A stretch of DNA of 64,000 nt from Micromonospora violae (GTDB lineage Bacteria; Actinomycetota; Actinomycetes; Mycobacteriales; Micromonosporaceae). Positions 44,593 through 55,373 of the stretch are shown here, piece by piece. Made by a program: the position numbers and the translations under genes. The number at the start of each line of letters is the position of its first letter. The first letter of the stretch is position 1. Below the pieces are notes generated by a model that was not told the origin of the DNA, made no database searches, and worked only from the letters and a program-made list of their open reading frames with translations. The stretch spans positions 4,836,001-4,900,000 of the forward strand of contig NZ_SHKK01000001.1 in assembly GCF_004217135.1 (NCBI RefSeq). Direction: 5' to 3'.

Positions 44593-44664
44593 GGGTGTGG
44601 CCGACCGTGCCCGGCTCCGGGCGGTCAGGCTTGATCCCTCCGCCGGGCACGGTCGGCCACACCC
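44593..44664. repeat. structured repeat copy A: 22-bp perfect stem with conserved 28-nt loop
   Basis: Arms 44593-44614 and 44643-44664 (core GGCCGACCGTGCCC) are exact reverse complements. The 28-nt loop begins CTCCGGGCGGTCAGGCTTG. Copy B at 54683-54756 has the same loop (26 of 28 identical) and the same 14-bp core, with compensatory changes in the outer stem. Lies between two convergent genes. Confidence 0.85.
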
Positions 44665-44688
44665 AGCTCGCCTGCGGCTTCGACGCAC

Positions 44689-44722
44689 AAGGGCCGGCCT
44701 CCTATCGGGGGGGCCGGCCCTT
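44689..44722. terminator. strong terminator hairpin
   Basis: AAGGGCCGGCC (44689-44699) pairs with GGCCGGCCCTT (44712-44722), followed by T-rich TTTGCGTTTC. Between the convergent lipoprotein and ABC permease genes, immediately after repeat copy A. Confidence 0.8.
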
Positions 44723-44764
44723 TGCGTTTCCTGGGGTTGATCTTGGCCTGCTGGTGGTCTGCCT

Positions 44765-45622
44765 TCAGCGACTGCTGGTGGTTTCTCTCACCCACGGCAG
44801 GGCGATCCGCTCGATCAGCACGAGCGCCGAGTAGAGCAGGATGCTCACCAGCGCCACCAGCATGATCGCCGCCCAGGCGGTGGCGGTGTCGCCGATGCCG
44901 GCGTACTGCGTGATGACGTAACCGAGGCCGCTCTCGCCGGCCTGGAACTCACCGATCACCGCGCCGATCGCGGCCAGCGGCATGCCCACCTTGAGCCCGA
45001 CGAAGATCTGCGGCAGGGCGGCCGGGAAACGCACCTTCCGGAACGCCTGCCAACGGGAGGCGTTCCAGGAACGCACCAGTTCGGCCAGGTCAGCCGGCGT
45101 GGTGGTCAGCCCGGTCGCGGTGGAGAGCACGATCGGGAAGAAGCAGAGCAGGAAGACCATGGTCAGGATCGGCTTCTGACCCCAGCCGAGCGCCACCACC
45201 AGCAGCGGGCCCAACGTGATCTTCGGCACCGCGTTCACCGCGACCAGCAACGGCGTGAACATCCGCTCGACCGTGCGGGAGCTGGCCAGGGAGAGTCCGA
45301 TCAGGACACCGGCGGCCACCGAGAGGGCGAACCCGGTCAGGATCTCCAGCATGGTGTCCCAGGTGTGCTCCAGCAACTGGGCCGGCTTGTCGACGAACGC
45401 GGTGAGCACCTCGCCGGGTGGGGGCAGAGCTGCGGGGTGGATCAGCTCCAGCCGGGCGGTCAACCACCACACCGCCAACGCGACCAGGAGGCCGACCGCG
45501 GGCAGCACCGTATCGGCCCCGGCCCGGAGACCGGCACCTCGACCCGTGCGCCCCGCGTCGGGGCTGGCACTCGGGGGCGAAGGCTCCGCCACCGCCGGGT
45601 CCGCTGACCGGACGTCGGTCAT
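44765..45622 (-). CDS. ABC transporter permease (TauC/SsuC/ThiX type)
   Basis: 285 aa from ATG 45622 (GGAGGA upstream). Six TM segments with the permease coupling loop NASRWQAFRKVRFPAALPQIFVGLK (EAA-type) and AAIGAVIGEFQAGESGLGYVI. Partner of the NMT1-type binding protein just upstream on the same strand and the ATPase at 47023. Confidence 0.92.
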   Translation of the reverse strand: MTDVRSADPAVAEPSPPSASPDAGRTGRGAGLRAGADTVLPAVGLLVALAVWWLTARLELIHPAALPPPGEVLTAFVDKPAQLLEHTWDTMLEILTGFALSVAAGVLIGLSLASSRTVERMFTPLLVAVNAVPKITLGPLLVVALGWGQKPILTMVFLLCFFPIVLSTATGLTTTPADLAELVRSWNASRWQAFRKVRFPAALPQIFVGLKVGMPLAAIGAVIGEFQAGESGLGYVITQYAGIGDTATAWAAIMLVALVSILLYSALVLIERIALPWVRETTSSR

Positions 45623-52162: not shown

Positions 52163-53755
52163 TCAGGCGAGCGGCAGATAGACCCGTCCGCCGCCGGAGA
52201 CGAACTCCTCCGACTTGTCCTTCATGCCGCGCGCCGCGTACTCCTTGAGCTCTTGGGTGATCTTCATGGAGCAGAACTTCGGGCCGCACATCGAGCAGAA
52301 GTGCGCGGTCTTCGCCGGCTCGGCCGGCAGGGTCGCGTCGTGGTACGAGCGCGCCGTCTCCGGGTCCAGCGAGAGGTTGAACTGGTCCTCCCAACGGAAC
52401 TCGAACCGCGCCTTCGACAGGGCGTCGTCCCAGGCCTGCGCGCCGGGGTGTCCCTTGGCCAGGTCCGCCGCGTGCGCCGCGATCTTGTACGCGATGACGC
52501 CCGCCTTCACGTCGTCCCGGTCCGGCAGGCCGAGGTGCTCCTTCGGCGTGACGTAGCAGAGCATCGCCGTGCCGAACATGCCGATCATCGCGGCGCCGAT
52601 CGCCGAGGTGATGTGGTCGTACGCGGGTGCGATGTCGGTGGTCAGCGGACCGAGCGTGTAGAACGGCGCCTCGTGGCACCACTCCTGCTGCAGGTCCACG
52701 TTCTCCTTGATCTTGTGCATCGGCACGTGGCCAGGCCCTTCGATCATCACCTGGACGTCGTGCGCCCAGGCGATCTTCGTCAGCTCACCAAGCGTGCGCA
52801 GCTCGGCGAACTGCGCCTCGTCGTTGGCGTCGGCGATCGAACCGGGGCGCAGCCCGTCGCCGAGGGAGAACGTCACGTCGTAGCGCGCGAGCAGCGCGCA
52901 GAGCTCCTCGAAGTTGGTGTAGAGGAAGTTCTCCTCGTGATGCGCCAGGCACCACGCCGCCATGATCGAACCGCCTCGGGACACGATTCCGGTCACCCGG
53001 TCCACGGCCAGCGGCACGTACGGCAGGAGCACCCCGGCGTGCACCGTCATGTAGTCCACGCCCTGCTCGGCCTGCTCGATCACGGTCTCCCGGAACACCT
53101 CCCAGCTCAACTTCACCGGGTCGCCGCCGACCTTCTCCAACGCCTGGTAGATCGGCACCGTCCCGATCGGCACCGGCGAGTTCCGCACGATCGCCTCACG
53201 GGTCTCGTGGATCCGCTTGCCCGTGGACAGGTCCATCACGGTGTCCGCACCCCAGCGGGTGGCCCAGGTCAGCTTCTCCACCTCCTCCGCGACCGACGAG
53301 CTGACCGCGGAGGTGCCGATGTTGGCGTTCACCTTGACCAGGAACGCCTTACCGATGATCGCCGGCTCGCACTCCGGGTGGTTCACGTTGAGCGGGAGCA
53401 CCGCCCGACCGGCGGCGATCTCAGCCCGCACGAGTTCCGGGTCGACGTTCTCCCGGATCGCCACGAACTCCATCTCCGGCGTCACCACACCGGCCCGCGC
53501 GTACGCGAGCTGGGTGGGCCGGCGACCGTCCAGCCCGGCCAGCGGCGTGCCCGCACCCCGCACCGGTGCCACGTCACCCCGCTCGGCGATCCACGGCCCA
53601 CGCAGCGGCGGCAGCCCCACCTCCGGGTCCGAACCGGGGCCGGACGTGTCGTAGAGCCGCACCGGCGGCAAATCTCCGGTCAGCCCCACCTCCGCGAACG
53701 GCACCCGGACATCCGGCCGGGAACCCTCGACGTACACCTTGCCTCGTGCGTGCAT
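52163..53755 (-). CDS. thiC: phosphomethylpyrimidine synthase ThiC
   Basis: Radical-SAM rearrangement of AIR to HMP-P. 530 aa. ATG 53755 follows AAGGAGG; an ATG 21 bp earlier is inside the spacer to thiD. The core [51 protein letters not shown] and [12 protein letters not shown] cluster motif (C-x2-C-x4-C) are all present. Distal gene of the thi operon. Confidence 0.98.
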
Positions 53756-53772
53756 GACAGCCTCCTTGGTGA

Positions 53773-54558
53773 TCAAGCGGACCAGCCGAAGTGGTTCAAC
53801 GGCCCGCGCCCCGCGCCCAGCTCCCAGCCCCGCGCGCCGGTCAGCGCACGGAGCACGTATTCCTTTGCGGCCCCCACCGCAGCCGGCACCGGATCACCCA
53901 GACCGAGCCGCACCGCGATCGCCGCCGAGAACGAGCACCCGGTGCCGTGGGTGTGCCGGGTCGCCACCCGGGGTGCGCGCAACAGGGTGGTGACGCCGCC
54001 GCCGTGCAGCACGTCGACCGCTTCACCCCCGTCGAGGTCACCGCCCGTGACCACCACGTACTCCGGGCCGCCGGCCACCAGGGCCTCGGCGGCCACGACC
54101 ATCGCGGCCACGTCGTCCACCGGGCGTCCGGTGATCGCCGCGGCCTCCGCGCAGTTCGGGGTCGCCACCCTGGCGTACGGCAGCAGCCGCTCCACCGCGC
54201 CCACCACGCCGAGCCGGTGACCACTCGTGGCGACCAGCACCGGGTCGACGACGAGCTGAGGCAGCCGGCCGTCCCGAGCCGCGTCCGCCACCACGTCCGC
54301 GATCGCCGGGGTGCCCAGCATCCCCGTCTTCACCGCGCAGACGGCGAAGTCGGTGAGCACACTGTCCAACTGCTCCGTGACCGTGCGCGGCGGCAGCGGC
54401 AGCACCGCGTCGACACCTCGGGTGTTCTGCGCGGTGACGGCCGTGAGGACGCTGGTGCCGTACGCGCCCAGCGCGGCGAAGACCTTGAGGTCGGCCTGGA
54501 TACCGGCACCTGCGCCGGAGTCCGAGCCGGCGATGGTGAGGATGGTGCGCGGGGTCAT
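53773..54558 (-). CDS. thiD: bifunctional HMP kinase / HMP-phosphate kinase ThiD
   Basis: 261 aa ribokinase-like. [23 protein letters not shown] at the N-terminus, [22 protein letters not shown] and [13 protein letters not shown] (anion hole and catalytic Asp/Cys region) identify ThiD. ATG 54558 overlaps the stop of the TenI-like gene in an ATGA; 17 bp to thiC. Confidence 0.97.
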
Positions 54559-55373
54559 TTTCCGTCGCCTTTGGTTGCGGTTGGGGGCTGCGGCGGGCCG
54601 TTTCTGGTTGCGGTTGGGGGCTGCGGCGGGCCGTTTCTGGTTCCGGTTGGGGGCTGCGGCGGGCCGTTTCTGGTTCCGGTTGGGGGCTGCGGCCGACCGT
54701 GCCCACTCCGGGCGGTCAGGCTTGATCCCTGCATGGGCACGGTCGGCCGCAGCCCCGATCGTGGGGACCTGGCTGACTCCGCGCCGGCTTTAACGAGCTT
54801 GGGGGTGACCGCCTTGGCATAAGCGCTGGTCAGACTCGCCGCTGTTTCGGTGGGGTCTTCTGCTCGCATGAGTGCGCCCAGGACTGCTACGCCGGTGGCT
54901 CCTGCTTGGACGCAGGCGGTTACCTGCTCCGGGGTCTCGACTCCGCCGAGGGCCAGCACGGGAACCTGACTGGTCCGAACCAGGCTGCCCAGCCCTGCAA
55001 TGCCCAGGGGTGGGCCGTAGCCCGGTTTCGTTCTTGTGGGCCAGATTGGGGAGATGGTGGCGTAGTGCTCGGTGGTGAGGCGGGTCAGCTCGGTGTGGTC
55101 GTGGCAGGAGCGGCCGACCAGCGGGTGGGTCGGCGGCGGGTACGGGCCGGCGGCGGGCAGGTGCACGGCGTCACCGCCGAGCGGGTCGGGGCCGGCCACG
55201 ATGAGGGTCCCGTCGACGTCGGCGAGGATCGCGCGCAGGTCGGCGGCGACGGCGGCCCGTTCGGCGCGGGGCAGGTCCTTCTCCCGCAACACCACCCAGC
55301 GCACTCCCCCGGCCACGGCCCCCGCCACAACCCGCTCAAGCCGACCGCGAGCGACCAGCCGATCGGTCAACAC
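54555..55373 (-). CDS. ThiE/TenI-like protein with repeat-derived C-terminal extension
   Basis: 272 aa from GTG 55373, giving VLTDRLV as N-terminus; a GTG at 55478 overlapping the thiG stop is the alternative but would include a hairpin. Core residues 1-200 are a ThiE/TenI TIM barrel ([74 protein letters not shown]), usual family length. The last about 70 residues derive from structured repeat B and three 33-nt repeats. Since a canonical ThiE is encoded at 57599, this is probably a thiazole tautomerase (TenI) type enzyme. Coupled to thiD by ATGA. Confidence 0.85.
54579..54692 (-). repeat. 33-nt tandem repeat encoding the C-terminal tail of the TenI-like protein
   Basis: Three full units starting at 54579, 54612 and 54645 plus a partial unit from 54678, each beginning GGTTGGGGGCTGCGGC on the plus strand. 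Being 33 nt, each adds 11 residues ([11 protein letters not shown] / [11 protein letters not shown]) in frame. The last unit merges into the left arm of repeat copy B. Confidence 0.85.
54683..54756. repeat. structured repeat copy B: 23-bp perfect stem with conserved 28-nt loop
   Basis: Arms 54683-54705 and 54734-54756 are exact complements; the core GGCCGACCGTGCCC and the loop (CTCCGGGCGGTCAGGCTTG...) match copy A at 44593. The outer stem is GGGGCTGC/GCAGCCCC here versus GGGTGT/ACACCC in copy A. It lies inside the reading frame of the TenI-like gene. Confidence 0.85.

Follow-up and report, generated by a model that had tools for sequence, protein, structure and literature searches.

A 64-kb stretch of the Micromonospora violae genome, analysed as a whole and referred to here as the window, contains two long hairpins whose 28-nt tips are identical at 26 of 28 positions (Table 1). 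Both had been reported in a first-pass annotation of the window and were recovered at the positions given there, with stems of 23 perfect pairs each; that of copy 2 extends to 25 pairs when one mismatch is allowed. As the annotation had also described, the inner core of the stem is the same in both copies and the outer pairs are altered on both sides, and gene and profile assignments locate copy 1 between convergent genes and copy 2 within the ThiE reading frame. RNA folding gave z-scores of −8.7 and −10.9 for the two hairpins, none of 200 shuffled sequences being equally stable, and the 21-nt core of the tip matched twice in the window (≤3 mismatches) and never in 100 shuffles. A recent segmental duplication, raised in the annotation as an objection to a dispersed element, is unlikely because the sequence beyond the hairpins, compared by eye, is not common to the two copies.

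Table 1. Positions of the two hairpins and of the features around them in the window.
Feature	Position	Strand	Remarks
Copy 1, 5′ arm of stem	44593..44615	+	sequence, fold, pairing
Copy 1, 28-nt apical module	44615..44642	+	21-nt core at 44618-44638; terminal bases of the module pair with each other as the innermost pair of the stem
Copy 1, 3′ arm of stem	44642..44664	+	sequence, fold, pairing
Copy 2, 5′ arm of stem	54683..54705	+	sequence, fold, pairing
Copy 2, 28-nt apical module	54706..54733	+	21-nt core at 54709-54729; innermost pair is C·A
Copy 2, 3′ arm of stem	54734..54756	+	sequence, fold, pairing
Gene upstream of copy 1, periplasmic binding protein (PF13458)	43404..44534	+	58 bp between stop codon and stem
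Ordinary GC-rich hairpin	44689..44722	+	24 bp behind copy 1, ahead of the convergent gene
Convergent gene, ABC transporter permease (PF00528)	44765..45508	-	
Tandem array, 33 bp x 3.9	54572..54700	+	unit copies the beginning of the element's 5′ arm together with its 5′ flank; array extends into the 5′ arm of copy 2
thiE reading frame (PF02581, residues 37-202 of 307)	54555..55478	-	open across copy 2 and the array
thiD (PF08543)	53773..54558	-	begins where the thiE frame ends

That no further copies would be found, another objection foreseen in the annotation, did not come about. The M. violae genome (7.14 Mb, single contig) holds 16 copies of a 25-mer taken from the tip (≤3 mismatches), 13 of them identical over the 25 nt, and the reversed-pattern control gave 0. 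With a 15-mer and up to two mismatches there were 16 exact matches, none with one mismatch and 10 with two, the last being near the control (8 in all), so that in this genome the family is all-or-none. Across the Micromonosporaceae, the 21-nt core was present in 156 of 300 genomes and 17 of 44 genera (≤2 mismatches; 2 matches in all for the reversed-pattern controls), and none was found in seven genomes of the same genus or in any of the 22 sampled genomes of one other genus (g11). A scan of named genomes returned at least 120 loci with the tip, 119 of them under names that we take to belong to the Micromonosporaceae and one in a metagenome-assembled genome named just Actinomycetes. Class-wide, 85 of 394 genomes had a match at ≤3 mismatches. 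Among the genomes listed from outside the family these carried 2-3 mismatches, with two exceptions, and by our own count control matches occurred in about fifty genomes of the same table; most matches outside the family are therefore background. The two exceptions belong to other families. One (G403) has 16 matches, the ten listed being exact and others carrying a mismatch, and some of its elements are grouped in arrays in which copies, each with its own stem, follow one another at about 115-160 bp, in mixed orientation. The other (G462) has one exact copy (L188, 5196-5269), lying between genes that, recognised by eye, are presumably rpoB and rpoC. The covariance-model search that the annotation had proposed, run on 118 genomes with strict filters and a model built from 35 hairpins, matched three of them (M. 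violae, G003 and G403) and brought up no relatives with a divergent tip. IMG/VR held no exact match to the tip, and among plasmids 110 records gave weak partial matches, none covering 80%. Literature searches, with the tip sequence itself among the queries, displayed no description of the hairpin family in the portions of text that they returned.

The unit consists of a stem of roughly 20-27 bp with free sequence, a nearly invariant 28-nt apical module and a GT-rich 5′ flank. Covariation was analysed in an ungapped alignment (74 columns) of 35 diverse hairpins, which comprised the two window copies and 33 of 34 hairpins selected for clear stems and for arms no more than 75% alike. Because nearly all of these loci had been located via the tip, its invariance in this set is partly by construction, and the proportion of paired cells (95.6%) is partly due to the choice of clear stems. 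Changes on both sides of a pair amounted to 294 cells, compared with at most 94 when the partner arm was slid and a mean of 89 after shuffling, and the covariation score was 0.675, a value that in the slid controls did not exceed 0.167. The apical helix was constant save for one cell. As for the flank, the 20 bases after the stop codon had T and A frequencies of 0.33 and 0.04 at sites with the element and of 0.13 and 0.14 at sites without it, which makes the GT-rich sequence part of the unit. All 12 occurrences of the shared 5′ flank TGGTTGCGGTTG in 932 kb adjoin a tip, in loci that had been fetched by the tip. Columns outside the stem reached at most 0.54 bits on the 5′ side and 0.52 bits on the 3′ side (111 representatives); stem ends were set by score, and a flank motif at variable distance could escape this column test.

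An unbiased test of the tip was provided by the site behind cdd (cytidine deaminase, PF00383), which was located by its protein and not by the tip in 81 of 81 genomes. Seventy flanks were fetched, 69 were readable and 37 contained the hairpin. The 20-nt core was unchanged in 34 of these 37, two showing one substitution and one a one-base deletion, and the mean pairwise difference among 36 of the hairpins was 0.0056 in the core and 0.118 and 0.101 in the arms. The selection on structure and on a sequence-specific tip that the annotation had put forward is thus strongly supported, both by covariation in the 35 hairpins and by the constancy of the tip at this site. Several cdd sites without the hairpin retain a fragment of an arm or of the tip, which indicates that loss by deletion is common, and the family as a whole is characterised by patchy presence and repeated loss. 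Dispersed hairpins usually conserve the sequence of the repeat; here it is the tip and the pairing of the stem that are conserved, at sites that extend through a genus.

Most copies follow a gene. Using a home-made gene caller, 213 matches were reduced to 189 distinct hairpins with a clear stem, 16 of which lie inside called genes and 9 of which have no upstream gene. In 145 of the 164 hairpins that remained, the gene upstream shared the strand of the element, with a median distance from stop codon to stem of 21 bp (orthologous copies included), and the bias persisted when counted per cluster (113 of 129 clusters at 70% identity, 60 of 68 at 60% identity). The upstream genes are unrelated, since 130 upstream proteins within 120 bp fell into 59 clusters; those tested in M. 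violae belong to transport, enzyme and domain of unknown function (DUF) families. The next gene was convergent at 35 of 70 sites with the element compared with 101 of 347 without it (P = 0.0012). Ordinary hairpins appeared to be scarcer behind the element (2/43 versus 77/259 at co-directional sites; 9/34 versus 51/112 at convergent ones), but this difference was gone in a position-matched control, and for this reason we do not claim that the element replaces terminators. In G293, the genome with the most copies (31), two copies follow the end of what, judged by eye, is an rRNA operon, directly behind a short hairpin with a T-run.

To determine which strand folds, we reasoned that, when a pair is replaced one base at a time, the intermediate on the folding strand should be G·U. 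The inner 18 pairs were scored in 209 hairpins, 35 of 244 candidates having been dropped for fewer than 17 Watson-Crick pairs out of 22. Results showed 10 G·U/U·G against 71 A·C/C·A cells on the gene-sense strand and, counted per cluster, 10 G·U against 56 A·C (P = 7e-9). The G·U:A·C split was 5:28 in Micromonospora and others, 0:14 in the Actinoplanes type and 2:10 at the cdd site. The opposite was seen in 194 ordinary hairpins located after stop codons, which came from the same kind of loci and were scored without a preference for G·U (79:40 cells; 59:30 and 49:26 with longer arms). The bias, reversed with respect to ordinary 3′ hairpins, is most simply read as selection on the folding of the opposite strand, so that the strand constrained to fold is probably antisense to the gene upstream. 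In this strand, G·A pairs might close the tip. Given the mismatch specificity of NucS, a nuclease of this type removing G·T was considered as a source of the bias but is not supported, as G·G was not depleted relative to C·C (10 versus 9). The count of G·U versus A·C, controlled with ordinary 3′ hairpins, provides a simple means of searching for the working strand of any palindromic repeat.

Some copies lie the other way round. Copy 2 has the minority orientation, and its constrained strand is that of the mRNA, as is also the case for the copy in G462. The thiE frame crosses the hairpin in all 8 loci that yielded both the ThiE motif and the tip (with a different tail in L128), and the hairpin gives ThiE an extra tail ahead of thiD.

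The strand bias bears on two explanations that would not need an antisense function. One holds that the element is a sense-strand hairpin in the 3′ untranslated region that ends or stabilises the upstream mRNA through a protein-binding tip. The orientation and the short distance to the upstream stop codon are what such a hairpin would show, but the wobble bias lies on the other strand, whereas ordinary 3′ hairpins point to the sense one; furthermore, there is no U-tract, an ordinary hairpin stands behind copy 1 and the orientation at thiE is opposite. We consider this explanation unlikely. According to the other, the stem is not selected at all: template switching, a known mutational path to perfect palindromes, would keep the arms matched, and the tip would be fixed simply because the copies are recent. 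Deletion scars do mark the sites as unstable. Nevertheless, the copies are old, as judged from genus-wide orthologues with arms about 11% different and the cores unchanged as described above, a symmetric correction would not yield a 10:56 strand bias, and the orientation relative to the gene is mostly retained, all of which makes this second explanation very improbable.

Our leading reading, which we hold tentatively and with somewhat less than even confidence, is that the hairpins constitute an undescribed Micromonosporaceae family of antisense-folding, factor-bound boundary elements at the 3′ edges of genes. The 28-nt module on the antisense strand would be a candidate binding site for a trans-acting factor, either protein or RNA. 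The hairpin would act on convergent or antisense transcripts arriving at the 3′ edge of the gene, possibly by halting them or by protecting and processing their 3′ ends, and would in this way mark a boundary. The spread of copies would be a separate step, brought about by duplication together with host units, by horizontal transfer or by a mobiliser that our searches did not find. Of the identities suggested in the annotation, a protein-binding hairpin or a small-RNA class gives the best fit; we add to it that the strand which folds seems to be antisense to the adjacent gene. In a broader version, which is possible but more doubtful, the family would represent a novel class of structured nucleic acid, built from an arbitrary stem and a universal 28-nt tip. 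It would act in antisense, be bound by a factor protecting the 3′ edges of genes from convergent or antisense transcription, and have spread between genes and families without a known mobiliser. If this version were true, many Micromonosporaceae would hold a recognition element and a partner factor for which our searches returned no name.

Several observations weigh against the leading reading. No intact hairpin is present at 32 of the 69 readable cdd sites (a strongly altered tip would count here too, and one of these sites, L226, ends at the locus edge), which means that no single site is essential. Both-side changes in 23 of the 24 outer pairs do not exceed shuffling, in which this number was reached in 51 of 500 cases. 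At many sites, cdd included, the next gene runs in the same direction, and the reading has to postulate an antisense transcript there; more generally, it presumes antisense RNA at the elements, and no conserved promoter was seen on the antisense strand by eye. Neither a U-tract nor a partner gene was found. G403, the only genome of another family with many copies, shows no wobble bias (2:2), in addition to its mixed orientation and tandem arrays. Lastly, the wobble bias would fit a hairpin of single-stranded DNA equally well, and does not tell RNA from DNA.

This last point leads to the alternative that the element is a non-autonomous mobile palindrome which folds as single-stranded DNA, in the manner of repetitive extragenic palindromic (REP) sequences, miniature inverted-repeat transposable elements (MITEs) or the bottom strand of attC, with the tip as the site of a nuclease or recombinase and with insertion targeted to gene ends. 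Dispersed copies that share the flank TGGTTGCGGTTG next to the tip, the patchy distribution over genera, the exact copies in G403 (with arrays) and G462, which belong to other families, and the strand-specific wobble all suit such an element. So do partial repeats of its 5′ end, similar to the array beside copy 2 and found upstream of 12 of 150 hairpins and downstream of 4 of 150 (1 of 150 in each swapped control), and the presence of an ordinary hairpin behind the element at 10 of 31 convergent sites compared with 6 of 58 position-matched controls. The enzymes that might move it are not consistently present. Of 18 element-bearing genomes tested, 13 lack the Y1 transposase (PF01797), among them M. 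violae, G211, G223, G205, G009 and G403, though it occurs in the other 5, including G293, and in 3 of 15 element-free genomes. Retrotransposition by a resident reverse transcriptase (PF00078) is not supported, as the enzyme is absent from 10 of the 18 (including M. violae, G293, G211 and G403) and present in the other 8. No clean insertion with a target duplication was found. At the hmgA site, where 30 of 61 loci were read, the tip occurs in 6, is inverted in one and is patchy on the gene tree, and the direction of change is ambiguous. Moreover, mobility alone does not explain the constraint on stem and tip at one orthologous site throughout a genus. On balance, we regard the mobile palindrome as possible, if on the doubtful side.

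Two further observations concern movement of the element. In one species (L322), the tip at the hmgA site is inverted within a related stem, as if flipped. In G293, four units of 2.0-2.3 kb (L373-L376) are flanked by inverted pairs of the element. These units carry a secreted lysozyme-like gene with a weak, below cut-off match to PF18896, and a transposon was rejected as their explanation, since this gene belongs to a multicopy family that also occurs in genomes without the element. All 51 congeneric genomes gave matches to the family (7-22 each, distant paralogues included), and some of these genomes are element-free, which indicates that the element probably hitch-hikes; the arrangement in G293 suggests spread together with host units. 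The gene names hmgA, deoA, rpoB and rpoC are those that we presume to apply.

The window contains two other long near-perfect hairpins, at 2185-2246 and 29603-29657, with arms of 29 and about 24 bp and without the conserved tip. A piece of arm of the latter recurs in another Micromonospora locus (L058), and this hairpin may therefore be a member of a second dispersed palindrome family.

Known systems were compared with the family by their defining features. For REP sequences with their REP-associated tyrosine transposase (RAYT), for intrinsic terminators and for Rfam families alike, at least one of the features tested does not hold here. At the curated threshold, Rfam identified in the window just a thiamine pyrophosphate (TPP) riboswitch, which lies at 58220-58329 on the minus strand, upstream of thiamine genes; around copy 1 it gave sub-threshold matches only, mostly to miRNA-precursor stems. 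REP sequences and bacterial interspersed mosaic elements (BIMEs) of gammaproteobacteria are likewise short extragenic palindromes, present in many copies at gene 3′ ends and sometimes in pairs or arrays. In our family, however, the tip is invariant and the stem is free, longer and nearly perfect, and the GTAG/GGAG-type tetranucleotide that stands beside REP hairpins has no counterpart in the flank columns. We find no support for the annotation's proposal of a REP-type palindrome with a resident RAYT: most of the element-bearing genomes tested, M. violae included, lack PF01797, and it is the tip that is fixed, not the stem.

With intrinsic terminators the element shares a GC-rich hairpin soon after the stop codon. 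The identification as a terminator, also offered in the annotation, is not supported: the tip is an invariant 28-nt module, the tolerance of wobble pairs is on the opposite strand, an ordinary hairpin follows copy 1 and there is no U-tract. T occupies the first two positions after the stem in 51 and 40 of 111 representatives and is the commonest base in one of the next six columns, and its frequency farther on is 0.19 (65 representatives). A terminator scan restricted to loops of 3-8 nt did not flag copy 1.

Rickettsia palindromic elements resemble copy 2 in lying within an open reading frame, whereas most copies of our family are outside genes, a comparison made by description and not by sequence. 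Integron attC sites also follow a gene stop codon and fold as the bottom strand; in contrast, we saw no cassette structure (integrases were not searched for), the neighbours are mostly single chromosomal genes and the tip is the conserved part. Finally, enterobacterial repetitive intergenic consensus (ERIC), BOX and Correia elements (also called NEMIS) are small dispersed hairpin repeats of one bacterial group with an unknown or absent mobiliser, as ours are, but those repeats are conserved over their full length, while in the family described here conservation is confined to the tip.

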